46,803 nt of DNA from Sulfurovum sp. (GTDB lineage: Bacteria > Campylobacterota > Campylobacteria > Campylobacterales > Sulfurovaceae): positions 1 to 46,803 of the forward strand of contig JAMORY010000020.1 in assembly GCA_027063305.1 (NCBI GenBank). Reading direction: 5' to 3'. Numbering within the stretch: the first letter of the stretch is position 1; the number at the start of each line of letters is the position of its first letter. Shown piece after piece: positions 419-15,978 of this stretch. The notes under the pieces were generated by a model, which saw only the letters and a list, made by a program, of their open reading frames with translations, had not been told where the DNA came from and did not search any database. Made by a program: the position numbers and the translations under genes.

Positions 419-436
419 GTGGGAAATACGTGGGAA
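419..436. promoter_or_regulatory. Candidate left arm-type integrase site (tandem GTGGG)
   Basis: Positions 419-436 read GTGGGAAATACGTGGGAA, two GTGGG units with an 11-bp period. The stretch matches 15796-15813 (GTGGGGAATATGTGGGGA) at 15 of 18 positions in the same orientation. One copy lies about 140 bp inside attL and the other about 75 bp inside attR. The one-turn period and the presence at both ends suggest arm sites for the recombinase encoded next door; binding is not shown. Confidence 0.45.
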
Positions 437-534
437 TTTTTTGTATACTACTATCACATATTCTTTACTTGTATGAGTATCTAAAAAAAGAAATTCATCT
501 TTTAAAGAGACAAAATCAAGGTGGTTAGCAAACA

Positions 535-1635: not shown

Positions 1636-1636
1636 C

Positions 1637-2140
1637 CTACTCCGGTAATATCTCTTCAGGATATTTAATCAAAACATAACAGTCAAGATTTGAAAGATTC
1701 TCTTTAATCAGATTAATAACTAGATCTTTATTCCTCTTATTCCACCCCCCGAGTATAGGCTTATGTGTTTCAAACTTCTCTAGCAGGTACTCTTTGCTTT
1801 TGTATTTTTCTATATCAATTTTGGGACTGTTTCTAATCTCATTAATAACATCTAAAAAGATTTTTCTAGGAAATTTTTTGGAGATATCAACCCATAATGG
1901 CTTTAACAAAATCAAGTCAAGTTTTAACTTCAGATTAAAGCGAGCATATTCAATAAGCATATACTCCATATCTGTATTATCAGATTCTAGGCGACTTATA
2001 CTATTTGTCTGGAGAAATTCCTCTAAATCAGATTCTGTGAAATACTTTTCAAGAAATGCGATAATAGGTCTATTCTCTTTTTTCCATGTGTAATAACTTC
2101 TTTCAGATATATCCAATAACTTACTTATCGATTGCTTCAA
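1637..2140 (-). CDS. Hypothetical protein with possible N-terminal HTH
   Basis: This 167-residue protein is read convergently with the integrase gene; its stop lies one base past the integrase stop. The first 30 residues (ISKLLDISERSYYTWKKE) look like a small helix-turn-helix of the kind seen in element-borne regulators, in which a Tyr/Trp-containing recognition helix follows a tight turn. The rest is rich in Leu, Lys and Glu with no motif I recognise, and no signal peptide or membrane segment is present. It is read divergently from the HTH-mob gene set and shares a promoter region with it, so a role in regulating mobilization is plausible but inferred. Start ATG at 2140 is preceded by GGAAATTATTTTG, only a modest ribosome site. 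Confidence 0.65.
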   Translation of the reverse strand: MKQSISKLLDISERSYYTWKKENRPIIAFLEKYFTESDLEEFLQTNSISRLESDNTDMEYMLIEYARFNLKLKLDLILLKPLWVDISKKFPRKIFLDVINEIRNSPKIDIEKYKSKEYLLEKFETHKPILGGWNKRNKDLVINLIKENLSNLDCYVLIKYPEEILPE

Positions 2141-2242
2141 AATAATTTCCTTTGCTAAATATTCACAATTATATCATTTTTATCTGTTTTTTACGCAAAT
2201 ACGGCTAAATCATACTTTTTTTTAAGTTTAAGAACTATATAC

Positions 2243-2276
2243 TGCCATTAATTCATATATTTTAGCATATATGGCA
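2243..2276. promoter_or_regulatory. Inverted repeat in divergent promoter region
   Basis: TGCCAT (2243-2248) and ATGGCA (2271-2276) form an inverted repeat around an AT-only core that also holds CATATAT twice (2254-2260 and 2266-2272). It lies 23 bp ahead of the HTH gene at 2299 and between two divergent transcription units, where an operator or promoter would be expected. Which protein binds is unknown. Confidence 0.35.
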
Positions 2277-2298
2277 ATTTTACGAAGGAAAGTATAAA

Positions 2299-2520
2299 AT
2301 GACATACATAGAAGCCCTTGAAGAAGTCAAAAGTATTCACCCTAAAAAGATGATGCTCTCAAAAAAAGAAGTGGCAGAATTAACCAACCGCAGTCTTAGT
2401 GCCTTGGATAGAGATATTCGAGAAGGTACAGGTATTTCCTACAAGAAGATAAGAGGCAGAGTGCTCTACCCTATCGTAGAAGTAGCAAAATGGATGAGTG
2501 ATCTTATTCAAACAGCATGA
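2299..2520 (+). CDS. Small HTH DNA-binding protein (AlpA/excisionase-like)
   Basis: This 73-residue protein has a predicted helix-turn-helix in residues 20-60: a KKEVAELTNRS helix pair, a DIREGTGI turn, then a wing-like RGRVLYPIVEVAKWM segment. That order (helix, turn, short wing, then an aliphatic helix) matches the MerR-like HTH of AlpA and Xis proteins. It could activate the integrase or serve as the recombination directionality factor, or regulate the mob genes. Its stop overlaps the start of the next gene by four bases (2517-2520, ATGA), implying translational coupling. A strong GAAGGAAAG ribosome site lies just upstream of ATG 2299. Confidence 0.75.
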   Translation: MTYIEALEEVKSIHPKKMMLSKKEVAELTNRSLSALDRDIREGTGISYKKIRGRVLYPIVEVAKWMSDLIQTA

Positions 2521-2870
2521 AAAAATCCAGACAGACGCACCATATAGATACTCGACTCACAGAGGAGGAGTATCAGATTATCTCTCTTAAAGCAGAGAAC
2601 TATGGTATTAAAAAATCCCAATTTATGAGAAATTTGGCACTTGGCTATCCACTGCCTCCATGCAGAGCCGATCAAAGGGTGATGATGGAACTCATTACCA
2701 TGCACAAAAATATCAATCGTTTAGGTGGATTATTTAAACTCTGGCTCATGATACACCAAGATACAAAAGTAAATCTTGGCAACAGAAGCTATACCAGCAT
2801 AGAACAGTTGATAGATGATATTGAAACAACCTCCCAAAAGATCCTTACTATCTCTCAAAAACTTCTATGA
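2517..2870 (+). CDS. mobC: MobC-like relaxosome accessory protein
   Basis: This 117-residue protein begins with a ribbon-helix-helix-like segment (HHIDTRLTEEEYQIISLKA, then an SQFMRNLALG helix), the fold used by MobC and TraJ proteins to bind oriT and help the relaxase open the strands. The C-terminal half is helical (NINRLGGLFKLW, then IDDIETTSQKILT), as in the MobC family (the Asn-Arg-Leu-Gly core is typical). It overlaps the HTH gene before it and the relaxase gene after it by four bases each, so the three are one translationally coupled unit. No long oriT is obvious; it is probably near 2140-2300 or upstream of the relaxase. Confidence 0.8.
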   Translation: MKKSRQTHHIDTRLTEEEYQIISLKAENYGIKKSQFMRNLALGYPLPPCRADQRVMMELITMHKNINRLGGLFKLWLMIHQDTKVNLGNRSYTSIEQLIDDIETTSQKILTISQKLL

Positions 2871-4474
2871 TCGTTAAAAAAATAGCTGCCAAAAAAGGCA
2901 CGGGATCCTTTAGTGGACTGGCAAATTATATATTGGACAAATCTAACGGTGGAGCAAAAGCAGAAGAGATTGTATGTTCAAACTGCCCCTATGATGATGT
3001 GGAGGAAAATATAGCTTTTATCAAGTCTATGCAAGATCTCAACCAAAGAACAACGCGGGATAAAACACTGCATCTGGTTGTATCATTTCCAGAGGGGGAA
3101 AAGCCTACCAAAGAACAACTTCAAGATATTGAGCAAGAGCTACTTAAAAGTATAGGCATGTCAGAACACCCCAGGCTAAGTGTTACACATACTAATACTG
3201 CAAACTATCATCTACACATTGCCGTGAGCCACATAGATCCTGTTACACTCAACCGCATTGATCCTCATAGAGATATCCCAAAGCTTCACAAAAAGGCGGA
3301 AGAACTTGAAGAGAAGCACGGACTCATACGAGACAATCATACACCAAATGATCTACTGGCAAAAGCAGGGCTCATATTTGACCCAAAACAACATACAAAA
3401 TCAAAAGATATAGAAATCCACTCTGGCGTATCCTCCCTACTCTCATGGATCAAAGAGGAAGCCTTAAACGACATCAAAGAGATACTCAAAGATCCTAAAT
3501 CATCCCTGCACGATTTACACCAGGTATTAGCAGATTACAATCTGGAGCTAAAACCTAGAGGTAACGGCATTGTTATTGCAGATAAGACAAGGAAGCTATT
3601 TGTAAAAGCTAGTGATGTTCACAGAGACTTATCCAAAGGTAAGCTTACTAAGAGGTTTGGAGAGTTCAAAACCTCTAAAATTACTACCACACCAAAAAAG
3701 AAATTTGGCAGACCAGTAAATGAGTATTGGAAACGATACCAGGAACTATCTACACAGAAGAGATCCACCAAAATAGAAGAGTTACGACTTGAAAAGTTAG
3801 CAAGAGAGACACTTAGAAAACAGATCAAAGAGAAATATACAGCACAGATCCAAAAGATTAAAGTAGATCCTCTTATCAATAAACGACACAAAGCCCAAGC
3901 ACAGAAAAAAGTTCGCGAACAGCGTAAGGCAGAATTGGCAGCACTTACCAAGACATTTAGTGAAAAGCGTAACGAGATCTACTCCAGTACAAAACAGACA
4001 TCTTACAAAGAGTACCTTATGGAATTGGCACTCTCTGGAGATGAGGGAGCCTTAAAAGAACTCCGAAAACAAAAACAAGAGATCAAGCCAGATGATAAGG
4101 TACTTATGCACCCTAAGAAAAAAGTATCACACTCCATCTTTAAGAGCTTCATATCCAAGATTACCAAACAGGGTAATGCAGTTTATGAAGTAGGTAAAAA
4201 TTCAACTGTAACGGATAAGGGAGATCATCTTAAACTCTCTTTGGAATCCAAGAGTGATGAGGCAATGCTACAAGCCCTTAAAATGGCAGTAGCCAAGTAT
4301 GGTAATACTTTGGATATTCAAGGCAATATTGAATTTAAAAAGCGTGTACTCATGGTAACGCAAAAATACGATCTAAAAGTGAACTTTGCAGATCCACAGA
4401 TGCAGAAGATTAAGAGTGAGATGACAGCAAGTACCTCACATCAAATTACAAATAAACAAACTATCAATAAATAA
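2867..4474 (+). CDS. MOBP-family relaxase with C-terminal LPD7-like domain
   Basis: This 535-residue relaxase would nick the element's oriT and pilot the single strand into a recipient using another element's type IV secretion system. The N-terminal 160 residues hold the family motifs: Tyr21 in ANYILDK, a likely nucleophile, and the metal-binding HLHIAVSHID (residues 115-124), plus LHLVVSF before it. Residues 220-360 are highly charged and probably helical. Residues 425-515 (VTDKGDHLKL, then MAVAKYG, KRVLMVT and VNFADP) resemble the LPD7 domain found at the end of many relaxases. It starts inside the mobC stop by four bases. The absence of a coupling protein or secretion genes nearby marks this as a mobilizable element, not a self-transmissible one. 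Confidence 0.9.
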   Translation: MIVKKIAAKKGTGSFSGLANYILDKSNGGAKAEEIVCSNCPYDDVEENIAFIKSMQDLNQRTTRDKTLHLVVSFPEGEKPTKEQLQDIEQELLKSIGMSEHPRLSVTHTNTANYHLHIAVSHIDPVTLNRIDPHRDIPKLHKKAEELEEKHGLIRDNHTPNDLLAKAGLIFDPKQHTKSKDIEIHSGVSSLLSWIKEEALNDIKEILKDPKSSLHDLHQVLADYNLELKPRGNGIVIADKTRKLFVKASDVHRDLSKGKLTKRFGEFKTSKITTTPKKKFGRPVNEYWKRYQELSTQKRSTKIEELRLEKLARETLRKQIKEKYTAQIQKIKVDPLINKRHKAQAQKKVREQRKAELAALTKTFSEKRNEIYSSTKQTSYKEYLMELALSGDEGALKELRKQKQEIKPDDKVLMHPKKKVSHSIFKSFISKITKQGNAVYEVGKNSTVTDKGDHLKLSLESKSDEAMLQALKMAVAKYGNTLDIQGNIEFKKRVLMVTQKYDLKVNFADPQMQKIKSEMTASTSHQITNKQTINK

Positions 4475-4488
4475 GTTTGTAACTATCT

Positions 4489-4728
4489 CTAATGTGCATA
4501 CTTTTTTAAATTTTGAATGTAAGTATCATTGAATGTAAGTATATTATGCTCACCTGCAACTTGTATTCTTGTTTCCAAGTAAGTGTCTGCTAACTGACTT
4601 ACTGCTGTTAAGTCATTAAATTCTGGCATCTGTGCACAATATTGTAATGTTTTCCGTCGCTTCTCGCGAACTCCATTTATTGATGATTTACGTTTTCGCT
4701 GCGTTGCTCTTCTTGCTAGTCTTGCCAT
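4489..4728 (-). CDS. Small basic hypothetical protein
   Basis: This 79-residue protein has a strongly basic N-terminus (Arg/Lys in about half of the first 25 residues) and a neutral helical C-terminus. No family is recognised. The gene is convergent with the relaxase gene and has a good ribosome site (AAAAGGA, nine bases before ATG), which supports real translation. The basic head could bind nucleic acid, but this is only a guess. It is AT-rich like the rest of the element. Confidence 0.5.
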   Translation of the reverse strand: MARLARRATQRKRKSSINGVREKRRKTLQYCAQMPEFNDLTAVSQLADTYLETRIQVAGEHNILTFNDTYIQNLKKYAH

Positions 4729-4840
4729 TTTTAATCCTTTTAATCGACTAATACAAAAGAAATTTTATTCCCTTTGGCTATGACTTTAAACAGATATTAA
4801 TAAATATCTATATCTAATAATGGATGAATTATACTTTAAC

Positions 4841-5878
4841 TTACTTTAATTTCTTTGTTTTTTCAAGATTTTCTATTAATTCTTGAGGTGTTTTGCCCTT
4901 ATTGATACTTTCTATAAGGAATTCTATAAATTGATATTCTTTATTACTTTTAGAAATAAAATCTTTTAAAAGAAATAGGGAAACAAGATCGGCTATCTTA
5001 TAGCAAAAATTTATATCCTTATCGGAATTAAAATAGTCAACTTCAATATGATCAAAACAAAGAAAGCCTAACGTATTAATATCCTTGCTATTTTGATACA
5101 TTTTTATTTCTGAAATAAACTCTGGCGATAAACTATTATTTTTGAAAGTCATAGGAATTATAAGCGTTGACTTGTAGCAATCATCGTGATTTGGTGGATT
5201 TTTACCATATCCTTTCCAACATTCAATCCATTCTGCTTCAATTCTTTTTTGGTTTTCATCATAAATAGCTTTTTTTAATTTTGTAAAAATTTTATTTTTA
5301 GGCTTCAATGATTTATAATATTTTTTCATACACTCTGGCTTTATTCTTGTATTTTTATAATTATTATTTGCCACAGCCTCCGGTATATTATTGCAAAGGT
5401 AATGATTTTTACTTTTATTGTAATCAATAAGGCGTTGAAAGCCTGTATTTTTATTGTATTTATACTTTTTGTCATTTTCTCTAAAAGGGTCAATAACATT
5501 TAAATCTTTATCTAAAATCTTTATACAACTTCTTGCTTGAGTATTTCTACGATTTAAAAAATACTTATCTGAAAATTCTAAATTATTTTGAACAATTTGA
5601 TTTAATTCACTAGAGACAATTGCATTGTATTTATCATAAGTATTTTTTAATTCGTCAATTAAAGAGAAATCTTTACTTGTATAAATCCTGTTCATAATAG
5701 CTATTAATTCTTTTTGATATTTATCATGCAAAAAGTAATATTCTGCAATTTTACCTTGGTTGTAACATACAACATCTCTAGTAAGATCAAAAATATTATG
5801 CTCTTCTTTGCAAGAGCATTCTTTATTTCCTCCTCCAAACAAACCTGCTAAATTAATATTTACTTTCGGCATTTGCAT
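4841..5878 (-). CDS. Unknown protein with possible GAF-like C-terminal domain
   Basis: This 345-residue protein has no signal peptide or membrane segment. Near the N-terminus is a Cys pair (KECSCKE) after a Gly-rich LFGGGN stretch, and residues 30-110 look helical. In the C-terminal third, the order TLIIPM, LGFLCFDH, DINFCYKIADLVSLFLL resembles the last strands and helix of a GAF sensor domain (the xGxLxxD followed by a long helix is typical). No enzymatic motif is seen. ATG 5878 is preferred over a TTG three bases upstream because AGGA sits eight bases before it. An XRE regulator gene lies just upstream on the same strand, so the two may form a regulated pair; an anti-phage sensing role is conceivable but unproven. 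Confidence 0.6.
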   Translation of the reverse strand: MQMPKVNINLAGLFGGGNKECSCKEEHNIFDLTRDVVCYNQGKIAEYYFLHDKYQKELIAIMNRIYTSKDFSLIDELKNTYDKYNAIVSSELNQIVQNNLEFSDKYFLNRRNTQARSCIKILDKDLNVIDPFRENDKKYKYNKNTGFQRLIDYNKSKNHYLCNNIPEAVANNNYKNTRIKPECMKKYYKSLKPKNKIFTKLKKAIYDENQKRIEAEWIECWKGYGKNPPNHDDCYKSTLIIPMTFKNNSLSPEFISEIKMYQNSKDINTLGFLCFDHIEVDYFNSDKDINFCYKIADLVSLFLLKDFISKSNKEYQFIEFLIESINKGKTPQELIENLEKTKKLK

Positions 5879-5944
5879 CAATTCTTCCTATATCGTTTGA
5901 TGATATTTTACAGTAATTCTTTTAAATACTTTTTCTTATCATAT

Positions 5945-6193
5945 TTAATTACTAAAAAACTCACAAATGCCCACATCTAAAGCCTTGGCAATTTTATAAA
6001 GATGCTCTATATTATAATGCTTATCTTCAAGCCCTGCCTCGATCTTCCCTATGGTACTCATGGACTTATGTCCTATGGTTAGAGCCAGGTCTAATTGGGT
6101 AATGCCTTTTTCTTTTCTGATCTTTCGTATGTTGGCAGCTATCTTTTGATGAAACTTTTGGATCTCTTCATCGGTGTATTCTATGTGATCCAT
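5945..6193 (-). CDS. XRE-family transcriptional regulator
   Basis: This 82-residue protein is nearly all one Cro/C1-type helix-turn-helix domain: IRKIRKEKGITQLDLAL, then the SMSTIGKIEAG recognition helix and a HLYKIAKALDV helix. It lies upstream of and collinear with the GAF-like gene (66-bp gap) and is read divergently from the lipoprotein gene at 6252. The 58-bp intergenic region between them must hold both promoters, so this protein probably represses one or both. The conserved Gln, Ser and Glu positions of the family are present. Confidence 0.85.
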   Translation of the reverse strand: MDHIEYTDEEIQKFHQKIAANIRKIRKEKGITQLDLALTIGHKSMSTIGKIEAGLEDKHYNIEHLYKIAKALDVGICEFFSN

Positions 6194-6251
6194 ATTTATT
6201 CCCTATAGTGAATACAAATAAAGGGATTACAAATTATTGGAGACTATTACA

Positions 6252-6419
6252 ATGAAAAAACTACTTTTATTTGCAATACTTACTGGACTAATAGCAGGGC
6301 TTACAGGGTGTAGTGATGAAGATGCTAAAAAAGAAGCAGAGAAAAAAGCCAAAAGAGAACACATGAAACAGCATGTAGATACTAGTGGCGAGAAGAAAAT
6401 TACTAAGCTACCTTTTTAG
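6252..6419 (+). CDS. Small lipoprotein
   Basis: This 55-residue precursor has a classic lipoprotein signal: MKK, a hydrophobic run LLLFAILTGLIAGL and the lipobox LTGC, giving a mature peptide of about 33 residues that is almost entirely charged (DEDAKKEAEKKAKRE). It would be anchored to a membrane through its lipidated Cys. ATG 6252 is chosen because GGAG lies nine bases upstream; a TTG start at 6237 would put extra residues before the signal peptide. Eight bases separate it from the next gene, so the two are probably cotranscribed. Element-borne lipoproteins are often entry-exclusion or lysis factors, but this one matches none I know. Confidence 0.65.
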   Translation: MKKLLLFAILTGLIAGLTGCSDEDAKKEAEKKAKREHMKQHVDTSGEKKITKLPF

Positions 6420-6427
6420 AGAGATCC

Positions 6428-6661
6428 ATGAAACAATTATTACAATTTACAGACAATAAAACTTACTTTGGCGTAGATATCCATCGTTACGGTGTCAGAG
6501 TGGATGATCTGAAAGAACTACCGTTTTTTGATACATTTGTTACATACCATGAAGATCGAATATTTCTAACCAATGGGGAAGAGCAGTATGTACCTGTAAT
6601 CGACTGGGAAAGTTTTTGTTATGTCTATGTGATGCATGGTAATTACCGAAATAATGATTAA
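6428..6661 (+). CDS. Hypothetical protein, 77 residues
   Basis: This is a soluble, acidic, aromatic-rich protein (VDIHRYGVRVDDLKELPFF, then a WESFCYVYVMHG stretch). It has no signal peptide, membrane helix or motif I recognise. It is preceded by GAGAGATCC at a usable spacing and follows the lipoprotein gene by eight bases, consistent with a small operon that may include 6704. The beta-rich pattern suggests a small folded domain. Confidence 0.55.
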   Translation: MKQLLQFTDNKTYFGVDIHRYGVRVDDLKELPFFDTFVTYHEDRIFLTNGEEQYVPVIDWESFCYVYVMHGNYRNND

Positions 6662-6703
6662 CCTTGAGGGGTTATAATAAATTATGAATCAAGGAGTTTG
6701 AAG

Positions 6704-6997
6704 ATGGTTTATCAAGAATTTACAAAAGAAGAAGCCAGAGAGCTTGGAGCCTTTACCGAAGATGCACTTAGTGAAAAAGATGCTGTCAGTGCAGCATGGC
6801 ATCCATATGGAGATCCTTATGGTCAAAACTATCCTACAAAATGGGATAACTTTTATAACAAATGGTTGGCTTTAGACCTTACAAGAACAGGAGGGTTCCC
6901 ATCGGTATTACTTGGCACCCTTTTAGTGCTTACAGCCCCGTTTACGCTCAGTAAAATATGGATTATAGATCCTATCCTCCAAAAGATCAGAGGATAA
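6704..6997 (+). CDS. Hypothetical protein with one membrane segment
   Basis: This 97-residue protein has a hydrophilic N-terminal two-thirds with many Trp and Tyr (AAWHPYGDPYGQNYPTKW) and a hydrophobic stretch near residues 68-88 (SVLLGTLLVLTAPFTLSKIW) that could span the inner membrane. ATG 6704 is preferred because AAGGAG lies eight bases upstream; a TTG at 6698 overlaps that site. No homologue is recognised. An ATAAGA/TCTTAT hairpin sits about 40 bp after the stop. It is the last gene before the defence operon. Confidence 0.55.
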   Translation: MVYQEFTKEEARELGAFTEDALSEKDAVSAAWHPYGDPYGQNYPTKWDNFYNKWLALDLTRTGGFPSVLLGTLLVLTAPFTLSKIWIIDPILQKIRG

Positions 6998-7013
6998 ACT
7001 CCTCTATCTCCAC

Positions 7014-7034
7014 GATAAGATTCCGTCTTATTGT
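7014..7034 (+). terminator. Weak hairpin ahead of vsr
   Basis: ATAAGA (7016-7021) and TCTTAT (7027-7032) form a six-pair stem with a TTCCG loop between the small-gene cluster and vsr. There is no clear T-tract, so termination is only a possibility. Confidence 0.25.
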
Positions 7035-7065
7035 CCTCTTCTAAATAATTTGATAATATAAACAT

Positions 7066-7506
7066 ATGGAAGAAACAAAAACATATATTAGAGATGCTCG
7101 ATCACCAACTCCAAAAAATGAGCAAACATCTAAAACAATGAGTGCCATAAAAGCAAAAAACACAAAACCCGAACTTATATTGCGTAAAACCCTATGGAAT
7201 AAAGGAATAAAAGGTTATCGGCTTCATTGGAAAAAAGTTCCAGGTAGACCAGATATTGCATTTCCTGGAAAAAAAATAGCAATATTTATAAATGGTTGTT
7301 TCTGGCACAGGTGTCCATCATGTAATCCTTCTACTCCTAAAACCAATATTGAATTTTGGCAAAATAAATTTTCAAAAAATATAGAAAGAGATAAAAGAAA
7401 AATAGAAGAACTTCAAAGTTTAGGTTGGCAAGTCCTAACAATCTGGGAATGTGAGATAAAGAAAGATTTAGATACCCAAATAACCAAAATAAAAGAGTTT
7501 TTATAA
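7066..7506 (+). CDS. vsr: Very short patch repair endonuclease (Vsr)
   Basis: This 146-residue Vsr endonuclease nicks beside T:G mismatches that arise when 5-methylcytosine deaminates, protecting the sites made by a partner methyltransferase. The family pattern is complete: KNTKPEL near residue 36, the GRPDIAFPGKKIAIFINGCFWH core with its catalytic Asp and zinc-binding His/Cys (CFWHRCPSC), then NIERD and GWQVLTIWECEI. It starts the operon, 81 bp before the C5-methyltransferase gene, exactly the context expected. ATG 7066 has a poor ribosome site; an internal ATG at 7138 would remove the N-terminal residues that precede the conserved MSAIKAKNTKPE box. Confidence 0.95.
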   Translation: MEETKTYIRDARSPTPKNEQTSKTMSAIKAKNTKPELILRKTLWNKGIKGYRLHWKKVPGRPDIAFPGKKIAIFINGCFWHRCPSCNPSTPKTNIEFWQNKFSKNIERDKRKIEELQSLGWQVLTIWECEIKKDLDTQITKIKEFL

Positions 7507-7587
7507 TTCTTTTTCATCCATGGATCCTTTTAAGATCAGCAAAGCTATAATATCTTTTTGATCATTATAGGCTGAGGGGAATACCAA

Positions 7588-9216
7588 TTGTATAAAGTAG
7601 CGGATTTTTTTTGTGGTGGAGGTGGGTTCTCTGAAGGATTTAAATTAGCAGGTTTTAAAATAGTTTTTGCAATAGATAAATGGCAACCTGCCGTAACAAC
7701 CCATGAAGCCAATCATCCAAAAGCCCATACATACCTTGGTGATGTCATTACAATATCAAACCTACCTGATGATGAGTTTCATAAACTTGTACCGGATACC
7801 GAAGTAATCATCGGATCACCTCCCTGCACTTCTTTTTCAAATTCTAATAGATCAGGGAAAGCAGATAAATCACTGGGTATCCAGCTAATTGAAGCATACT
7901 TGAAAATCGTTGCAAGAAAACTTCTTAAAGAAAACTCAATTTTAAAATATTGGGTATTAGAAAATGTCCCAAATGTAGTTTCTTATATTCAAGATTCCTA
8001 TAGCTATAGAGAGCTAGGTATAGAACATGATGGAACCCTACAAGTCAAATATCCATCCTCTAAGGTCTATAATGCAAAATACTTTGGTGTTGCTTCAAAT
8101 CGTAAAAGATATTTTTGTGGTAATTTTCCAGAACCAGAACCATTGATCACTGAAGATAAAGATACTATTTCAGTTAATGAAATATTGAGAAACCTCAAAG
8201 AACCTAATCATAATTTAAATACAAGGATCATAGATCCGAATTATACTGATTTCAGTATGCTATCCAAGGATATAACCGATCATCATTATATTGTAGAAGT
8301 GGCACAGTTTGAATGGGAAAAAGCAAAAAGACATAAACAAGATAAAGGTTACATGGGGAAAATGGCTTTTCCTGAAGATCTGAGTAAACCATCTAGAACC
8401 ATTATGGCAACCATGTCAGCATGTTCTCGTGAATCAATTATCTACCCATATATTCCGGAAGAAAAGAGATATCGATTGCCTACAGTTAGAGAAATAGCAT
8501 GTATCATGAGCTATCCTTTGGATTATAGATTTTATGGACAAAGCAAAGGCATTAAATATAAACTTGTAGGAAACTCTGTACCACCAAAAATGTCTTTTGC
8601 CATAGCAAGAGCAATAGCTATGAATGATGGCTTATCCACACCAAAGACATATACCCCTATAACATTTATTGACGATAAGCCAAACAAGTTCATAAATTTA
8701 AATTTCAGAGATTTTCCATTAAATAAAGAAAAACCAAAAAGAGAAAATGCTAAATTTAAATATCATATTCCGTATTTGAAAATTAATACATATAGGGTAG
8801 AACTAAGCAATAAATATTTAGACGATACAAATTTAAAAATTGAATGGGTAGTTGAGATACATAAGAGTCAAGGTCCAAAAGCAACAAAAACCATACCAGA
8901 TATAAATATGAAAGACATAGCAAAGGAAGATCAACTTAATATTGATAAATTTGTGAAAACAATGAAGTCTAAATTACCACATGCAAATAAATTTCAAAAA
9001 TATTATTGTATGACGGGTGAAGAACGAAAACAAAAAAATTTGATCGGTCCATATGAATTATTATCAGAGATACGAACCTTTATTGATGATAAGCTTGATT
9101 TAAATGATCAAAGAACTATTTTGTATAATACAGAGAGGTTCCCTTATCCAATCTATATTGGCTATATTATTTTGAAAAAGTTAACTATGCATATCAACAA
9201 AAAGGTCTTACCGTGA
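7588..9216 (+). CDS. DNA (cytosine-5) methyltransferase with C-terminal extension
   Basis: This 542-residue enzyme would transfer a methyl group from SAM to C5 of cytosine in a defined site. The canonical motifs appear in order: I (FFCGGGGFSEGF, residues 7-18), IV with nucleophile Cys80 (GSPPC), VI (ENV, 125-127), VIII (NRKRYF, 171-176) and X (GNSVPP, about 328-333). The target-recognition region lies about 180-290. Residues 345-542 are an extra C-terminal domain not found in Dcm-like enzymes and carry no motif I know. The start is TTG 7588, supported by GAGGGGA seven bases upstream. The stop overlaps the next gene by four bases. The sequence specificity cannot be read. Confidence 0.95.
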   Translation: MYKVADFFCGGGGFSEGFKLAGFKIVFAIDKWQPAVTTHEANHPKAHTYLGDVITISNLPDDEFHKLVPDTEVIIGSPPCTSFSNSNRSGKADKSLGIQLIEAYLKIVARKLLKENSILKYWVLENVPNVVSYIQDSYSYRELGIEHDGTLQVKYPSSKVYNAKYFGVASNRKRYFCGNFPEPEPLITEDKDTISVNEILRNLKEPNHNLNTRIIDPNYTDFSMLSKDITDHHYIVEVAQFEWEKAKRHKQDKGYMGKMAFPEDLSKPSRTIMATMSACSRESIIYPYIPEEKRYRLPTVREIACIMSYPLDYRFYGQSKGIKYKLVGNSVPPKMSFAIARAIAMNDGLSTPKTYTPITFIDDKPNKFINLNFRDFPLNKEKPKRENAKFKYHIPYLKINTYRVELSNKYLDDTNLKIEWVVEIHKSQGPKATKTIPDINMKDIAKEDQLNIDKFVKTMKSKLPHANKFQKYYCMTGEERKQKNLIGPYELLSEIRTFIDDKLDLNDQRTILYNTERFPYPIYIGYIILKKLTMHINKKVLP

Positions 9217-10565
9217 ACAAGGAAACAAGAATACAAAAAATATCTGAAATACTAAAGCAAGAACCATATGCTCAAAAAGAGATAATGTGGCAAGATAATT
9301 TAGAAGTAATGCCCGTATATAAAATTCCTTTAAAATATTTATTATACAACAAATACAATGGTCGTATTTTAAGCCGAACACAATCTCTTGAAGCCCAAGG
9401 TAAAGATCTTGACCCCGAAAATGAGAATGATAAAAAAATCATTGAAAAGCTTTTATGGGACTCGAAACCGGATAGAAATAAAAACACACTCTCAGATCTT
9501 GAAGCACATGGACAAAAAGAAATAGGAATAATTACAAGAGATGGAATTATCATTGATGGTAACCGTCGTGCAATGCTTCTTAATAAAATCGATAAGTATG
9601 ATTATTTTAAAGCAGTTATCTTACCAGTTACCTTAGAGCAAAATCCAATAGAAATAGAAAAACTTGAAACCTCATATCAAATGGGGGCAGACGAAAAGCT
9701 TGGATATAATCCAATAGAGAAATATATAAAGGCAAAAAATCTTGCAAAAAAAGGTATAACTACAAAAGAGATATCTGATTGGATGGGAGAGACTGAATCA
9801 ACTATTAAAGATTACCTTTCAGTAATGAAAACCATGGATGATTACTTAGATTATCTTCAATACAATGGAATATATACACAACTTGATGGAAGAGAAGATC
9901 AATTTATCAATCTTACAAAATGGTTAAATACATTCTATAATGGCAGTGCAAAAGGTTTTGATGGATATAAAGAAGATGATGTCGCTGATTTGCAAGCAAT
10001 AGGGTATGACTATATCCGTATCAAGTATGAAGGAAAAAAATTCCGACAACTTGCATACGGGCTAAAAGAGAGACATATTTTTGGGAATAAAGAAGTTTGG
10101 CAAAGTTTTAGCGATAAACACTTTGAATTCATCAGTCCAATAATTGATGAAGAGGGCAAGCCTAATCTTGATACCAATAATATTGAAGCAACACTTAATG
10201 CTCGAGATGAAGCCTTTAAAACAAAAACTGAAAAGTTTCTTGATGATAATTTAGATGAACACTATACTCAAATTAGATATAAACAATCTCAAAATGAACC
10301 CAAAAAATTAGTAAGAAATGCTACTCGTGCTATTCAATCAATCAATACAAAAAATCTTTCAAAACCAGAAGTTATAGAAGAACTATCCGAATTACGAGAT
10401 GAGATAAGCAGTATCATTCAAGACAGATCCCAAGAAAAAGCACTAGAACACGTTTTAGAGCAATTATCCAAGATTGAAATCACTGATATTAAAGACACTG
10501 ATTTTGCTGATGAGTATCTAAAACAAATCAATAAATTATCATTTGAACTCAGAAAAAGTTTGTAA
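9213..10565 (+). CDS. ParB-like nuclease/CTPase-fold protein of the defence operon
   Basis: This 450-residue protein carries a ParB/sulfiredoxin-fold signature: IPLKYLLYN, then a region leading to GIIIDGNRRAMLL (DGNRR at about 114-118), the nucleotide-binding box of the superfamily. A helix-turn-helix-like stretch follows (TTKEISDWMGETESTIKDYL, about 190-210), as in ParB. The C-terminal 150 residues are charged and helical (EVIEELSELRDEISSI). ParB proteins use CTP or act as nucleases; which applies here is unknown. It overlaps the methyltransferase gene by four bases and precedes the helicase gene by six bases, so it is a component of the same system. A chromosome-segregation role is unlikely given the context. 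Confidence 0.8.
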   Translation: MNKETRIQKISEILKQEPYAQKEIMWQDNLEVMPVYKIPLKYLLYNKYNGRILSRTQSLEAQGKDLDPENENDKKIIEKLLWDSKPDRNKNTLSDLEAHGQKEIGIITRDGIIIDGNRRAMLLNKIDKYDYFKAVILPVTLEQNPIEIEKLETSYQMGADEKLGYNPIEKYIKAKNLAKKGITTKEISDWMGETESTIKDYLSVMKTMDDYLDYLQYNGIYTQLDGREDQFINLTKWLNTFYNGSAKGFDGYKEDDVADLQAIGYDYIRIKYEGKKFRQLAYGLKERHIFGNKEVWQSFSDKHFEFISPIIDEEGKPNLDTNNIEATLNARDEAFKTKTEKFLDDNLDEHYTQIRYKQSQNEPKKLVRNATRAIQSINTKNLSKPEVIEELSELRDEISSIIQDRSQEKALEHVLEQLSKIEITDIKDTDFADEYLKQINKLSFELRKSL

Positions 10566-10571
10566 CTCAAG

Positions 10572-12548
10572 ATGAAGATAAATATTGATATTGTAGAAAA
10601 TACATTTGTCCTAACAGGGGATATTGATACTATTTTGAGTAAAAGGAGAGCCCTACTTTCTTTTAAAAGACTTTCGTATAAACATACAGATAGTAGATTA
10701 GTTATACCCTACAATGAAAATACAAAAATACATACTCTCCAAACCATAGAACGCATTTTAAATAAATTCCATATCGACATAAATTTAGGTGAAGCAACAA
10801 AGCAAGAGCTTATTTCATATGATAGAGAGCAAGTGAATTTTACTATTTTTTCAGAAAAAGCAAAAAAAATACGGAATAATGAATTCAGTAGCGAACTAGA
10901 TATTGTTGAAGATTTTAAAGACTTCAAAAAGACAATACATCAAAAGATATCAAGAACACTTTACCCTTTACAACTTTTGTCATCCTTCCATATGGCATTT
11001 GCACAAAATAGTTGCAATTTTGCAGTGCCAGGAGCAGGGAAAACAACAATAGTATATGGAGCATACACTTATCTCAAAAATCTTCCCAAAAATAATCCAA
11101 AACATGTAGACAAAATATTGGTTATTGGTCCCTTATCTTCATTTGCCCCCTGGGAAAATGAATACGAAGCATGTTTTGGTACAAAAGTCTCTTCTCAAAG
11201 AATGTCAGGAGATATTTCTATTACTAGAATTCAAAAAGAACAACATTTATATTCTGATAAACCCAAAGAGCTAACATTGATCTCTCATGCAGGAGTTCCA
11301 TTACTGGAAAAAGAGATTATCGATTTTTTAAAAAAGAATAAGGTCATGGTCGTTGTTGATGAGGCACATAGAATAAAAAATGCTGAAGGAATCTGGGGGC
11401 AAAGTGTAGTAGAGATAGCAAAAGAAGCTACTGCAAGAGTAATTCTAACAGGTACTCCTCTACCCAATGGCTATGAAGATATCTATAATCTATATAGATT
11501 CATCTATCCATTTAAATATCAGGATATCTTACAAATAAACTATGATCAATTAAAAGAAATGACCAAAAACATGGTGTCTCCAGATAGCGAAAGGATAAAA
11601 AGTTTCACTAAAAATATCAGTCCTTATTTCATTAGAATCAAAAAAAATGATCTTGGGCTTCCTAATCCCATCGAACACTTAATCAAAGTTGATATGGATG
11701 AACATCAACGATCAGTTTATGACTTTATTGAAGAAAAATATATAAATTCATTTAAACATAACTCAGGGGGCACCATAAAAGATGTTCTCAATAAAGCAAA
11801 ATTGATAAGACTTCGACAAGCTTCAACAAATCCCTCTTTGCTTCTAAAGCCCCTACAAGACTCTTTGGAGCACTCTAGTGAGATAGGAGACTATGATCCA
11901 AATTATAGATTTGCAGAAATTGACAATGAAAGTATTGATGATGTAGAAATTTTTCAAAAAATAATTAATTATGAAAAATTATATATTCCTCAAAAGTTCA
12001 TTAAAATAGAGGAATTATTATCAAATAAAATATTTTTAGAAGGTGGAAAAGCTATTATTTGGACGATCTTCATACAAAATGCTGAGCAATTACAAAATTA
12101 TTTAAAACAAAAAGATATTAATTCAAAATTATTGATAGGGCGTATTCCTCAAGATGAAAGGGAGGAGATAATTGAAAAATTTAATGACCCAAGCAATAAT
12201 GAATTTCAAGTAGTTATCGCAAATCCTTTTTCTGTTTCAGAGTCTATCTCTCTTCATAAAGGCTGCCACAATGCAATATATCTTGAAAGAGATTACAATG
12301 CCGCCAGTTTTATACAGTCGAGGGATCGGATACATCGTGTAGGTTTACCTGAACATACAGATACACACTACTATTATTTTGTTTCAACAAAAAGTATTGA
12401 TACGGTAATAGACCGAAAATTGAATGAAAAAGTTAAAAGAATGGAAAAGATTATAGATGAAGAAATTCCTCTCTTTAGACGAATCAATGATTCTGATGAA
12501 ACAGACATTATTAAAACACTGTTAGAAGATTATGCTCAAAGAACTTAA
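10572..12548 (+). CDS. SNF2-type superfamily 2 helicase/translocase
   Basis: This 658-residue ATPase has both RecA-like lobes. Lobe 1 shows a Walker A box PGAGKTT (residues 153-159), DEAH at about 264 (VVVDEAHRIKN) and LTGTPLPN. Lobe 2 shows KAIIWTIF, the NPFSVSESISLHKG region and the motif VI QSRDRIHRVG (about 580-590), characteristic of the SNF2/Rad54 group. The Walker A reads VPGAGKTT instead of the usual GLGKT of classic SNF2 proteins. The N-terminal 120 residues are a separate domain that may recognise DNA. It probably translocates on DNA to drive cleavage by the nuclease next to it. It follows the ParB-like gene by six bases and overlaps the nuclease gene by 17. Confidence 0.9.
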   Translation: MKINIDIVENTFVLTGDIDTILSKRRALLSFKRLSYKHTDSRLVIPYNENTKIHTLQTIERILNKFHIDINLGEATKQELISYDREQVNFTIFSEKAKKIRNNEFSSELDIVEDFKDFKKTIHQKISRTLYPLQLLSSFHMAFAQNSCNFAVPGAGKTTIVYGAYTYLKNLPKNNPKHVDKILVIGPLSSFAPWENEYEACFGTKVSSQRMSGDISITRIQKEQHLYSDKPKELTLISHAGVPLLEKEIIDFLKKNKVMVVVDEAHRIKNAEGIWGQSVVEIAKEATARVILTGTPLPNGYEDIYNLYRFIYPFKYQDILQINYDQLKEMTKNMVSPDSERIKSFTKNISPYFIRIKKNDLGLPNPIEHLIKVDMDEHQRSVYDFIEEKYINSFKHNSGGTIKDVLNKAKLIRLRQASTNPSLLLKPLQDSLEHSSEIGDYDPNYRFAEIDNESIDDVEIFQKIINYEKLYIPQKFIKIEELLSNKIFLEGGKAIIWTIFIQNAEQLQNYLKQKDINSKLLIGRIPQDEREEIIEKFNDPSNNEFQVVIANPFSVSESISLHKGCHNAIYLERDYNAASFIQSRDRIHRVGLPEHTDTHYYYFVSTKSIDTVIDRKLNEKVKRMEKIIDEEIPLFRRINDSDETDIIKTLLEDYAQRT

Positions 12549-13488
12549 ACAATATGAGAATCTAGGTACACCAAAATATTTTTGGGAGTTCTTTCGACTT
12601 TTTAAAGATGGTAGTTCATGGACAGGGGAAACTGTAAGTGAACACTTTTTTAATAAGATTATTGATGATAAAATGATATTTGATGGATGTATCCCATTAT
12701 TGCTGCATACTGGTATTATTTCATTTGATACAGATCAACAAATACTTATTAGTACGGAATACCGTAATATCACTCGTTCAGAAGGATTTTGTCAACAAAA
12801 ACTTTTAGAAGGATTTTTAAATGCATTTCAAAAAGATGAAGAATTCATAACAATTTTTAAAGATACCCACTATGACTACTTATCATCTAAATCAATAGTC
12901 ATAAATAGATCTGCTTTTGGACTGCCATATTCAAATTTACGTAAACTTTTACAAGCATTTGATTTTTTACGCCCTCACCCTACCATCAATAATACTTATA
13001 TTATAAATCCTAGAAAGAAAAAATATTTTGAAGAAAAAATAGTTCCAAAAATAAGAAAAATAATGGGGATCGAAGAACTAAAAAAACAATTAAAACAACA
13101 AGAACTCAATGGAGAAGAAGCAGAAAAATATGTATTATCCTATGAGAAGTCTCGCTTAAATGGGAAAGACGGGATAGAGTGGATAGCTCCCTATGATTCA
13201 GCTGCAGGATTTGATATCCTATCATATCATGATCAGGATGACGATGAAAATAATCGTTTTATCGAAGTTAAGTCATATACAGGAATCAAACCATATTTTT
13301 ATTGGACAAAAAATGAAATGAAAAAAGCAAAAGATAGAGGGTATGATTATGCTATATATCTTGTATGCAGAGAAAGAATGAATGATGATACATATCATCC
13401 AATTATCATTCATGATCCATTTTCAAATATTTTAGAAAGTGAAGAATGGGCTAAAGAAATTGATAAATATTATATTACGTCCCTTTAA
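12532..13488 (+). CDS. DUF3883 (PD-(D/E)XK-like) restriction nuclease candidate
   Basis: This 318-residue protein ends in a DUF3883-type nuclease-like domain (about residues 195-318): LNGEEAEKYVLSYEKSRL, then GFDILSYH and RFIEVKSYTG. The Asp of FDILS and the Glu-x-Lys of EVKS (about 244-246) match the PD-(D/E)XK active site, as does the upstream Glu. The first 190 residues form a winged-helix-rich region of unknown role (SNLRKLLQAFDFLR). It is the last gene of the operon and its start overlaps the helicase gene by 17 bases. It is the best candidate for the cutting subunit. Its TAA and the TAA of the convergent amidoligase gene overlap at TTAA 13485-13488. Confidence 0.8.
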   Translation: MLKELKQYENLGTPKYFWEFFRLFKDGSSWTGETVSEHFFNKIIDDKMIFDGCIPLLLHTGIISFDTDQQILISTEYRNITRSEGFCQQKLLEGFLNAFQKDEEFITIFKDTHYDYLSSKSIVINRSAFGLPYSNLRKLLQAFDFLRPHPTINNTYIINPRKKKYFEEKIVPKIRKIMGIEELKKQLKQQELNGEEAEKYVLSYEKSRLNGKDGIEWIAPYDSAAGFDILSYHDQDDDENNRFIEVKSYTGIKPYFYWTKNEMKKAKDRGYDYAIYLVCRERMNDDTYHPIIIHDPFSNILESEEWAKEIDKYYITSL

Positions 13489-14321
13489 CTATCTAATATA
13501 CCAGCTTCAATAAGAGCCGAAGCAAATCTGCCTTTGGCTTCTTTATCCATGCTATCTAGCATCTGCTTATGATTCTCCAGTAATCTTTTATGCTCTGGAG
13601 TCACCACTCCTAAAACCTGAATAAAATAATCAGCATATATTTCAAACTCTCTCTTAAGTCGTTCTGTTTCTTTGTGGTAATCAGCTCCACCGATAGATTT
13701 GATCTCAATATGATGAGGATCAATTCTCTCCAGGTTCCAGATGGTACCTTTTTTGGTTTTAATGATCCTTGCTTCCTGTTTTGTATGAGAAGATAGGATA
13801 TCCATTACATTTTGAGAATATCCAATCCTTGGCTTCCATGCAGAGAGCAAACCTGCATCATCACACAGGAGCATAAAACGGTAAAAATCTATATGACTGC
13901 TGCCAAGAGTACTTATATGGATATGGAAACCTGTCTCTTCATTGGTATAGCCATATTGTTCTATTAGAGGCAGGATCATTTGAATATAATGCAAGATCCC
14001 TTCTTTGGTAGAGATAGGGACAGATATCTCCACTCCGTGATCTTCCAGTGAGATGTCTGGCTTGATCTGCATGCAGTGGTTTTTATCTGCTGCATGAGGG
14101 ATGGATATCTCATCTACCAGGATATCTGCCGAAGTAAGTTCATAAAGAGCTTTTGTCAGAGTACCAATCACATCTGCGTAGAGGTACTGTTCTGTGTCTA
14201 TATAAAACTCAAATTCACATCCATAACGACAAAGATCATTCTCTTTGGGCTTAAAACTTGGATATTTGCAACTACTATTCCCTTGGTAGCGTTTTGTTGT
14301 TCCCTCTAAAATGTACTGCAT
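13485..14321 (-). CDS. Amidoligase (glutamine-synthetase-like fold)
   Basis: This 278-residue protein matches the amidoligase (COOH-NH2 ligase) family, which joins a carboxylate to an amine with ATP, often tagging proteins or making peptides. The key residues are seen: E36 and E38 in GCEFEFYID, VEIS (97-100), the HIH pair in GFHIHIS (132-137), and IEIKSIGG (205-212) for the Glu-Lys-Ser metal/ATP site. The product and substrate are unknown. It is the downstream gene of a two-gene unit, its start sharing one base with the stop of the cyclotransferase gene (TAATG). This pairing of amidoligase and cyclotransferase was described as a recurrent neighbourhood by Iyer, Aravind and colleagues. Confidence 0.85.
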   Translation of the reverse strand: MQYILEGTTKRYQGNSSCKYPSFKPKENDLCRYGCEFEFYIDTEQYLYADVIGTLTKALYELTSADILVDEISIPHAADKNHCMQIKPDISLEDHGVEISVPISTKEGILHYIQMILPLIEQYGYTNEETGFHIHISTLGSSHIDFYRFMLLCDDAGLLSAWKPRIGYSQNVMDILSSHTKQEARIIKTKKGTIWNLERIDPHHIEIKSIGGADYHKETERLKREFEIYADYFIQVLGVVTPEHKRLLENHKQMLDSMDKEAKGRFASALIEAGILDS

Positions 14322-14932
14322 TATGCCCCTATTGCAGTCTCAAGATAATCCTCAAGCTGCTTCACCTTATGATTGGTATCTGATTTCCACTCTCTAAGAG
14401 GTTTTTGCCCTTTGGGTATAGCAGTATGAGGCTGAATATATACAAATGCTCTTACTGTGCCTCTATGCGTCTTTACAAGGATCTTTTTTCTCTCGTAGTA
14501 ATCTGGATACCCCTCAAACCTGTCAAGCTTCTCTAAAAGCTCTTTTCGGTGTATTTCATAGAGTTCTCCATGTATCCTCATCTGTGGTACAGGGATCAAA
14601 TAAGGATAGTTCCCAAAGCTATCTTCAAACATCCCAAATTTACTTAGAGTAATAGCCTTACCAACCCTTTTGGCATGTTTACCTAACAGGTGATGGTTGT
14701 CAAATCCTTTTTTGAGGGATCCGTAAACAAAAAGCATCTCTCTAAAAGGCTCAATCCGTTTGAACTCTCCTCTTCCGGTAATCGTAATGATTCCTTTGTC
14801 ATGGAGACGATGCAGTATCTTTCTAAGCGTATCCGTTGAAATATCTTTTGTCTTTACCCTGGAAAAAGGCACTATAGTATTTATAGAAAGTCTGTTTATT
14901 TTTCGTTCGATCTTCTCTATGTACTTATTCAT
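14321..14932 (-). CDS. Winged-helix/gamma-glutamylcyclotransferase (AIG2-like) fusion
   Basis: This 203-residue protein joins an N-terminal winged helix (about residues 1-62, TDTLRKILHRLHDKGIIT, then the GRGEFKRI wing) to a gamma-glutamylcyclotransferase domain: FVYGSLKKGF (68-77), then GELYEI and LDRFEGYP (136-143), with the catalytic Glu probably in that region. Such enzymes remove gamma-glutamyl groups as 5-oxoproline, so it may reverse or trim the amidoligase product, while the winged helix suggests DNA-binding self-regulation. The winged-helix module resembles antitoxin domains of the AbiEi/DUF6088 type. ATG 14932 is chosen because AAAGGAG lies eight bases upstream; a longer frame would extend into the promoter. 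Confidence 0.8.
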   Translation of the reverse strand: MNKYIEKIERKINRLSINTIVPFSRVKTKDISTDTLRKILHRLHDKGIITITGRGEFKRIEPFREMLFVYGSLKKGFDNHHLLGKHAKRVGKAITLSKFGMFEDSFGNYPYLIPVPQMRIHGELYEIHRKELLEKLDRFEGYPDYYERKKILVKTHRGTVRAFVYIQPHTAIPKGQKPLREWKSDTNHKVKQLEDYLETAIGA

Positions 14933-14950
14933 AGTGCTTTCTCCTTTATA

Positions 14951-14997
14951 ATATCGTGACAATATTATAGCATTTTTTTATATTTTTGTCACGATAT
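14951..14997 (-). promoter_or_regulatory. Promoter and palindromic operator of the amidoligase module
   Basis: On the minus strand GTGACA (complement of 14987-14992) and TATAAT (complement of 14964-14969) are 17 bp apart, a near-consensus sigma-70 promoter. ATATCGTGAC (14951-14960) and GTCACGATAT (14988-14997) are perfect inverted repeats: one overlaps the -35, the other lies just after the -10. A repressor bridging them would block the promoter. The winged helix of the first gene product is the natural candidate; binding is not shown. Confidence 0.75.
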
Positions 14998-15124
14998 ATT
15001 TTAGAATGGAATTGTAAAGCTGCAAAAGCCTGTTTTTTTCATGATACATCAAAGAAGTGTTACTTTTCGTAAAAAAGCTAAAAAAGAGCCTCTTCTTTTT
15101 TTCATAGCAGTGCATATTTTTCTC

Positions 15125-15172
15125 TGTCAACTGTTGTCAAACTATGTCAATTCATACTTTTTGACTTTTGAC
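15125..15172. repeat. TGTCAA repeat cluster
   Basis: TGTCAA occurs at 15125, 15135 and 15145 with an exact 10-bp period, followed by inverted TTGAC at 15161 and 15168. The third unit is part of the 13-bp motif also found at 377-389. Helical phasing suggests protein binding, for example an integrase or excisionase arm array, or iterons of a replication or partition protein. Confidence 0.45.
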
Positions 15173-15295
15173 AAATAACGATCTTTGGAGAATAATCTTA
15201 GTAATGATTTTTCGTGTGATTTTCAATAATACGGAAGAAGTAGCAAGCCAAAGATGCCCTGAATTGATACCTCAATCATCTTTGACTTACGTTGA

Positions 15296-15322
15296 AAGAA
15301 GTATAGCAAAAAAATACTTCTT
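15296..15322. repeat. Nine-pair hairpin in the right-end non-coding stretch
   Basis: AAGAAGTAT (15296-15304) and ATACTTCTT (15314-15322) can form a perfect hairpin. It lies about 60 bp before the structured stretch and may end or begin transcription; no T-tract follows. Nothing else is recognisable in 15000-15124 or 15173-15378. Confidence 0.3.
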
Positions 15323-15384
15323 AATCAACACCTTGTCACTGTTAAGCTCTACTTCATCAAATTCCAAAAAAATTACATAACACC

Positions 15385-15720
15385 CTCCGGGGGTTCAGCC
15401 TTATCCGGATCTAAGTCAAAGATATGATCCGGGCTGGCATTGTGAGCGTGAAAGCGTTCTAGAGTTGATAGCACATATGCCGTGTTTTCAGCCGAGTCTA
15501 TCAGGGGACTCTTTTGGGTTACCAGAATGTAATAGCTTAACACAGATTGAAATGCATCCCATCAAAAAGCCGACTCAAGACCTCTCAAGAGGCGAAAGCC
15601 CTCTCTAATCAATCCGGAACACCTGAACTAAGAGACCTGCAAAGGATAAGGAGTTGTATATCAGCTATCAATCGATATGCATCTGATGATAACCGACATG
15701 TGACGGATCGTTAATCAGTG
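15385..15720 (+). ncRNA. Candidate structured RNA, unknown class
   Basis: This 336-bp stretch has no credible reading frame and is visibly richer in G and C than the surrounding AT-rich element. It folds readily on paper. GGCTG (15432) pairs with CAGCC (15489), enclosing GGCAT/ATGCC, TGTG/CACA and a GAGCG/CGTTC hairpin. GAGTC/GACTC (near 15494 and 15506) follows, then a GGCGAAAGCC tetraloop hairpin near 15591. TCCGGAT (15404) can pair with ATCCGGA (15612) across the domain. A strong 12-bp hairpin at 15723 would end it. It resembles neither tmRNA, RNase P, SRP RNA nor a group II intron. Orientation and ends are guesses. Confidence 0.45.
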
Positions 15721-15722
15721 TT

Positions 15723-15752
15723 TTGAGCCCTATGATTTTTCATAGGGCTCAA
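15723..15752. terminator. 12-bp perfect hairpin after the structured stretch
   Basis: TTGAGCCCTATG (15723-15734) and its exact complement (15741-15752) flank an ATTTTT loop. The stem is strong, but T residues precede it and none follow, so it may be a terminator of unusual type or part of the RNA fold. Confidence 0.5.
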
Positions 15753-15795
15753 GTGCTCTTCAAATTTCGCTCGATGCTCTGGATTGTACTTTGGT

Positions 15796-15813
15796 GTGGG
15801 GAATATGTGGGGA
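15796..15813. promoter_or_regulatory. Candidate right arm-type integrase site
   Basis: GTGGGGAATATGTGGGGA repeats GTGGGG with an 11-bp period and matches 419-436 at 15 of 18 positions, about 75 bp inside attR. See the left copy; function is inferred from position. Confidence 0.45.
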
Positions 15814-15882
15814 GAACGAGAATAGTAAAATAGCTTAAATGCTCTCAAGTTACGCTGTGTTGGGACTTAGTTTGGATTGTTT

Positions 15883-15909
15883 AAAATGGATGGCCGGGAG
15901 AGGGGGATT
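15883..15909. repeat. attR within the tRNA-Ser 3' end
   Basis: Positions 15889-15909 are identical to 257-277 and cover the CCA end, acceptor strand and part of the T-stem of tRNA-Ser. The crossover must lie inside this block. The tRNA is complete here because the element supplies the same 3' bases it displaces. Confidence 0.92.
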
Positions 15910-15978
15910 CGAACCCCCGGAGGTGTTACCCTCACCGGTTTTCAAGACCGGCACATTCGACCACTCTGACATCTCCCG
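15891..15978 (-). tRNA. tRNA-Ser(UGA)
   Basis: Read on the minus strand, this 88-nt cloverleaf has a CGGGAGA/TCTCCCG acceptor stem, a long variable arm as in all tRNA-Ser, a TGA anticodon in loop CTTGAAA, a GGTTCGAATCC T-loop region and an encoded CCA. It is the insertion site of the integrated element and the last of a four-tRNA unit. Confidence 0.96.

Follow-up and report, generated by a model that had tools for sequence, protein, structure and literature searches.

To our knowledge, structured RNAs have seldom been described from mobilizable islands, and hardly any of them has an assigned role. Salmonella Genomic Island 1 (SGI1) encodes an RNA, sgm-sRNA, that is needed for its mobilization; its locus is flanked by mpsA and oriT, and the RNA arises by processing of an mRNA, the primary transcript being several hundred nt long (PMC9299015). 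GOLLD, ROOL, and OLE are large ornate bacterial RNAs, of which GOLLD and ROOL are carried by phages or prophages, frequently close to tRNA genes, and have no known function (PMC12286853). The PLE phage satellites, which parasitise phage, produce abundant noncoding transcripts (PMC7567579), and in ICEKp1, ICEclc, and ICEEc1 a promoter and stem-loops have been reported in the 5′ untranslated region of the integrase gene, int (PMC13023037). Here we analyze a conserved noncoding block that adjoins the right attachment site (attR) of an integrated element in the sulfur-oxidising bacterium Sulfurovum sp. (GCA_027063305.1). The window, i.e., the whole stretch of DNA analyzed, is the entire 46.8 kb contig JAMORY010000020.1 of a 2.03 Mb genome. 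The element, an integrative and mobilizable element (IME), spans ~260–15909 of it (~15.6 kb) and is inserted in tRNA-Ser(UGA).

The sequence comparisons below indicate that the block is conserved, folded on the plus strand, noncoding, and tied to an IME family, and that it almost certainly encodes a real structured RNA. The family is uncatalogued and combines a supported fold, a fixed place at the attachment site, loss in remnants of such elements, and the presence, within the RNA, of a segment of the target tRNA. The locus makes it possible to test whether RNAs encoded by the element are used by integrases or mobilization systems.

Fold, strand, and extent of the conserved block

A preliminary description of this DNA had proposed a possible unknown structured RNA next to attR, to be checked by covariance models and by covariation in homologous islands. 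For the latter, a structure of 102 pairs was drawn by hand and its pairs were counted on a MAFFT alignment built without structure. The structure was drawn partly from the same sequences, which are related, and the cells of the alignment are not independent events; with this reservation, 93.3% of the cells are paired, as compared to 31–46% when the partners are slid, and 25 pairs have changed on both sides, as compared to 9.4±2.0 in shuffles. The covariation score is 0.190 (0.112±0.007 shuffled), and none of 500 shuffles reached the observed value of any of the three measures. For the core alone, 12 pairs have changed on both sides (4.7±1.5 shuffled). The compensatory changes are thus well above both the shuffled and the slid controls.

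The segment 15233–15765 folds with z = -4.9, none of 100 shuffles being equally stable, and the shorter segment 15380–15765 gives z = -2.9 on the plus strand and -2.8 on the minus strand. The core helices contain 55 G·U pairs versus 3 A·C mismatches, an excess that identifies the plus strand as the folded one. The exception is hairpin H1, which lacks the G·U bias and could therefore be formed by either strand.

Several of the helices named in the preliminary description are real and conserved, namely the GAGCG/CGTTC hairpin (P3 in Table 1), the GAGTC/GACTC hairpin (P5), the GCGAAAGC segment (P8), and the strong hairpin that follows the stretch. The nested GGCTG/CAGCC, GGCAT/ATGCC, and TGTG/CACA helices did not survive the comparison: they contain no pair with changes on both sides, and the latter two break in 8 of 45 and 8 of 36 cells, respectively. 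The GGC at 15436–15438 pairs upstream instead, with the GCC at 15398–15400, and here changes on both sides are found. We have also considered pseudoknots of GGGGGUUC or GUUCAG with the P9 strand, suggested by alignment A4, which lack support, being broken in one or the other of two copies (L008 and L009), and a 5′–3′ closing helix GAAG-AGC/GCUCUUC, which is present in the minimum-free-energy fold but fails in L009 and shows no covariation.

The block had been placed at 15385–15720. It is real, but these limits are too narrow: conservation in the nine copies of alignment A5 runs from ~15200 to ~15785, and the RNA extends ~150 nt further upstream. At the 5′ side, TTTTCAATA is invariant in the nine copies and could be part of a -10 region, with a predicted start near 15233–15238. 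At the 3′ side, the hairpin at 15721–15752 has no T-run on either strand, which rules it out as a classical intrinsic terminator and leaves the 3′ end of the RNA uncertain. A second promoter-like pair, TTGATT-N17-TATACT, lies on the minus strand; its first hexamer shows slight changes, and its spacer varies jointly with hairpin H2. It would yield an antisense RNA over the first ~60 nt of the RNA. Because the gene to its left differs from element to element, this pair serves no single conserved gene.

The G+C content is 41–48% in 100-base windows across 15360–15759, versus 26–33% immediately upstream and mostly 25–40% across the element, in line with the earlier remark on a G+C-richer stretch in an AT-rich element. 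That the stretch is noncoding holds as well, since no open reading frame (ORF) of useful length is conserved across the nine copies. The only ORF of at least 12 codons with start and stop kept in eight of the nine is a 12-codon run inside P2 and P3, and a protein-coding gene can be dismissed because the ORFs shift frame and length between lineages.

Homologues and association with the element

None of the Rfam (15) covariance models matches the block at gathering or permissive thresholds, GOLLD, ROOL, and OLE included, in agreement with the earlier failure to recognize tmRNA, RNase P, SRP RNA, 6S, or a group I/II intron. Together with the compensatory changes in the homologous islands, this result supports the proposal of an unknown structured RNA, and we have not found the RNA described in the open-access literature.

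A DNA search of 200 related genomes yielded near-identical copies of 96–97% identity (G024, G046, and G071), copies of 77–79% identity (G051, G009, and G106), a shorter match of 86% (G114), and a copy that is partial and lies at the edge of a contig (G056). One further copy, from a Sulfurimonas record, came out of a pattern scan over the species contigs of GTDB; it is 90% identical to the window across the aligned block and shows that the RNA has moved between genera. Nine copies are alignable, eight in Sulfurovum-type genomes and one in Sulfurimonas, and the named records with the RNA are mostly Sulfurovum. Covariance-model searches of the order (399 genomes), the family (175), and the phylum (397) returned only these loci and chance matches. 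As chance we judged the weak matches in a photolyase-like gene (G122), a TonB-dependent-receptor-like gene (G230), an AAA-protease-like gene (G644), and a short intergenic stretch (G107); the best-scoring weak match (L068, in G322) aligned to P6 only. No homologue was found among phage records or in IMG/VR, where one pattern match (L049) lay in an unrelated coding region, and plasmids gave only a 28-base chance match. The RNA family is thus real but narrow in range.

The 18-bp core repeat GGCCGGGAGAGGGGGATT occurs at 260 and again at 15892, within the 3′ end of tRNA-Ser(TGA), which confirms the position next to attR. Where the right flank of a copy is assembled, it is always the same tRNA-Ser(UGA) heading a tRNA cluster, followed by ilvD where the contig reaches that far. 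The RNA is present in all four elements that have an intact close integrase (at least 58% identical) and both ends readable (window, G024, G009, and G114). In four elements, 135–140 nt separate the 3′ hairpin from the core. For G008 and G110, the contig obtained does not include the right end, and these incomplete genomes yielded no RNA. The RNA is absent from the attR remnants of G041, G048, G015, and G052, none of which has a close integrase; in G048 the upstream sequence resembles a transposase remnant, and in G015 and G052 a clean junction leads from the upstream region of a GGACT gene to attR.

The RNA core is 80–81% identical between the window and G114 or G009, and the corresponding value for int DNA is 61–62%. 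The cargo beside the RNA varies, including AbiE-type and PLD proteins (by Pfam) and, on visual inspection of the translated sequences, proteins of type I restriction as well as HipA-like and Fic-like proteins; in the window it consists of Vsr, a C5 methylase, an SNF2 helicase, a NO VEIN C-terminal protein, and a GGACT-domain protein. Judged from these comparisons, the RNA is a backbone part of an IME family in tRNA-Ser(UGA), independent of the cargo and carried between genera. The element is classed as mobilizable on account of its MOBP TraI-like relaxase, and it also encodes a NikA-like protein.

The RNA contains an exact same-sense copy of the 5′ half of the T-arm of the target tRNA-Ser, CCTCCGGGGGTTC; in the tRNA, this segment lies immediately past the crossover core. 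The match to the host tRNA-Ser(UGA) is 12–15 nt long in the eight copies for which the host tRNA was compared, and for neither the window nor L009 was it equalled in 200 shuffles. The copy could represent a relic, a mimic, an integrase site of the core type, or a contact to the tRNA. The DNA on the donor side has no consistent match in the RNA, which leaves a guide resembling a bridge RNA unsupported. A donor guide of the bridge type (IS110) was rejected on the grounds that only the target-like tRNA match is present and that the recombinase is a tyrosine integrase.

Table 1. Positions in the window of the RNA, its helices, and the landmarks of the element
Feature	Positions	Strand	Basis or remark
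Conserved noncoding block (RNA gene and upstream promoter-like region)	15200–15785	+	Alignment A5 (nine loci), homologues, no Rfam family
Predicted RNA, ~530 nt, both ends estimated	15233–15762	+	z = -4.9 (15233–15765), covariation over 102 pairs
Promoter-like region ATTTTTCGTGTGATTTTCAATAAT, outward facing	15202–15230	+	Function inferred
Promoter-like pair TTGATT-N17-TATACT	15300–15328	-	Hexamers and 17-nt spacing kept in every lineage
Hairpin H1, long inverted repeat, inner hairpin 15263–15276	15245–15288	+	6 double-changed pairs
Hairpin H2	15291–15329	+	4 double-changed pairs
Copy of T-arm 5′ half of target tRNA-Ser, exact, same sense	15384–15396	+	Match in eight copies
Helices P1 (15398–15400/15436–15438) and P2 (15405–15411/15426–15432)	15398–15438	+	5 double-changed pairs
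Hairpin P3, GNRA-type loop (GAAA or GGAA)	15444–15459	+	100% paired, 3 double-changed pairs
Hairpin P4, near-invariant loop, many G-U pairs	15464–15492	+	100% paired, one-sided changes only
Hairpin P5	15494–15511	+	82% paired, 2 double-changed pairs
Helix P6 (15512–15518/15558–15566), closes multibranch region	15512–15566	+	92% paired, no double change (alignment as made)
Tetraloop hairpin P8, GC-GAAA-GC, GNRA-type loop	15592–15599	+	Both pairs invariant
Helix P9 and inner P9b (15609–15626), most conserved stretch	15602–15635	+	One double change, else invariant
Hairpin P10	15645–15669	+	Nearly all cells paired, one double change
Strong 3′ hairpin without T-run	15721–15752	+	3 double-changed pairs
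attL core	260–277	+	GGCCGGGAGAGGGGGATT repeat
Tyrosine integrase (int)	535–1635	+	Pfam PF00589; adjoins attL; RNA on same strand
MOBP TraI-like relaxase	2867–4474	+	NCBIfam NF041893, score above cutoff
attR-side direct repeat	15795–15813	+	Counterpart 418–436 near attL; DNA level, outside RNA
attR core	15892–15909	+	Inside tRNA-Ser(UGA) 15891–15978, minus strand

A few further features of the element are worth recording. Near the two attachment cores there are paired direct repeats, TGTGGGRAATAYGTGGGRA, which are probably integrase arm-type sites. The repeat unit varies between elements (GTTGGA type in G009) yet matches across the two ends of any one element, as expected of arm sites that co-evolve with the integrase. 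An element in tRNA-Pro (L107 in G142, 926–10660), with an integrase 46–48% identical, has an arm-like repeat of its own, GGGTAGCAATAGGGTAGCAA, at either end. At the same distal position it contains ~600 nt of noncoding DNA in which motifs of the AAAATTACGC type recur; this stretch is not homologous to the RNA of the window. Next to int, the minus-strand gene 1637–2140 encodes an uncharacterized 167-aa protein whose N-terminal ~50 residues are common to proteins of the G024, G009, and G114 elements; apart from the integrase and the RNA, few backbone parts recur, and this protein is among them.

The cargo at 7066–13488 (Vsr, C5 methylase, a 450-aa protein without known family, SNF2 helicase, and the NO VEIN C-terminal protein) resembles a defence cluster of the restriction type; no complete named defence system was matched in it. 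Beside the RNA, two overlapping minus-strand genes (13485–14321 and 14321–14962) form a candidate new toxin-antitoxin pair. One member has an AbiEi-like N-terminal region (PADLOC, E 5.8e-5) fused to a GGACT/AIG2 domain, and its partner, of 278 aa, matches no known family; the corresponding slot of G106 holds a DUF6088 protein and AbiEii.

Possible role of the RNA

The RNA, a predicted transcript, probably takes part in the mobility of the element. We favor, with a probability of roughly 45%, a stand-alone noncoding RNA that serves the excision, integration, or mobilization of the element. Outward transcription would start at ~15233 on the plus strand, and the product would work as RNA in the element's own cycle, in a role like that of the SGI1 sgm-sRNA. 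An antisense RNA transcribed from the conserved minus-strand promoter-like pair may control the 5′ hairpin, and the near-invariant T-arm copy may make contact with the target tRNA or with the gene for it. A number of points weigh against such a role. The predicted RNA lies at 15.2–15.8 kb, far from the relaxase gene (2.9–4.5 kb), whereas sgm-sRNA adjoins oriT. There are only ~six independent lineages, all of them close relatives, and only four resolved elements, since G008 and G110, which have a close integrase, are unreadable to the right end. Finally, no protein partner or base-pairing target has been identified.

Some of the same observations are compatible with the RNA being the leader of int in the excised circle, where the outward promoter would face int across attP and the fold would act as an attenuator or antiterminator, int being expressed mainly from the circle. 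Joining of the ends places int 360–470 nt past the RNA hairpin in four elements, the 3′ hairpin lacks a T-run, the RNA accompanies the integrase, and a promoter at the 3′ end is reported to drive int in the circular forms of ICEKp1, ICEclc, and ICEEc1 (PMC13023037). However, a long and deeply conserved fold 360–470 nt before the start codon exceeds the needs of a promoter, a promoter-like TATACT is present near int itself in the window, and the T-arm copy is left unexplained. We regard a leader function as the main rival and as less likely than the stand-alone RNA; it retains weight because in four elements the RNA points toward attP with int on its own strand, and because no intrinsic terminator was seen between the two, by a simple scan, in three of four. 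It is somewhat less probable that the plus-strand RNA is a primer, replication-control, or immunity RNA of the excised circle, its level being set by the minus-strand transcript. The conserved minus-strand promoter-like pair would give an antisense RNA over H1, an arrangement known from plasmid RNAs under antisense control. ParA, which points to a plasmid-like phase, is encoded by two of the elements with the RNA, and no replication protein is recognised in the window element or in the compact G114 element. On the other hand, no origin was identified, several element proteins lack annotation, ParA is absent from the searched segments of the window, G024, G009, and G114, and the minus-strand promoter is a consensus match that is partly constrained by hairpin H2.

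That the block acts as DNA, through operators, recombination sites, or a single-strand origin, with the fold as a by-product, appears very unlikely in view of the G-U excess over A-C in the core, the preserved GNRA-type loops, and the many double-changed helices. A folded single plus strand of DNA would nevertheless be compatible with the data, the arm-type repeats and the core adjoin the block, H1 without strand bias could be an operator or an inverted repeat, and the T-arm copy resembles one half of attB. Similarly doubtful is a direct action of the RNA in tyrosine-integrase recombination, in which the near-invariant T-arm copy, a match to attB immediately past the crossover core, would hybridise to or mimic the target tRNA or its gene and thereby couple target choice, tRNA function, or integration direction to the RNA. 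The mRNA of a type I toxin-antitoxin system, i.e., a small peptide with an antisense RNA, would also be structured and carry a candidate antisense promoter near its 5′ end. Here, however, the sole conserved ORF, of 12 codons, has neither a clear ribosome-binding site nor hydrophobic character, the remaining ORFs change frame or length between lineages, and no conserved small hydrophobic ORF with a ribosome-binding site was found across the nine copies, which makes this explanation extremely improbable.

Comparison with described systems

The stand-alone RNA that we favor can be compared with several known cases. Like PLE, the window element is a chromosomal satellite-type element with a noncoding RNA as a standard part; unlike PLE, it carries a conjugative-type relaxase. 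As in ICEKp1, ICEclc, and ICEEc1, an outward promoter-like region (here a predicted promoter) is located at the int-distal end and would face int once the element is excised, but this end of the window element carries a long conserved RNA. In contrast to GOLLD, ROOL, and OLE, which are Rfam-type families without a match here, the RNA is shorter, sits on a mobilizable island, and has a narrow range. Like the sgm-sRNA of SGI1, it is encoded by an integrative mobilizable element with an integrase, a MOBP relaxase, and att repeats, is several hundred nt long, and is conserved with the element; it lies at attR rather than between mobilization genes and oriT, and the two are likened by their proposed role. 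Since large structured RNAs on mobile elements are already a known kind, represented by GOLLD, ROOL, the PLE transcript, and sgm-sRNA, the RNA described here is best regarded as a new family within that kind.
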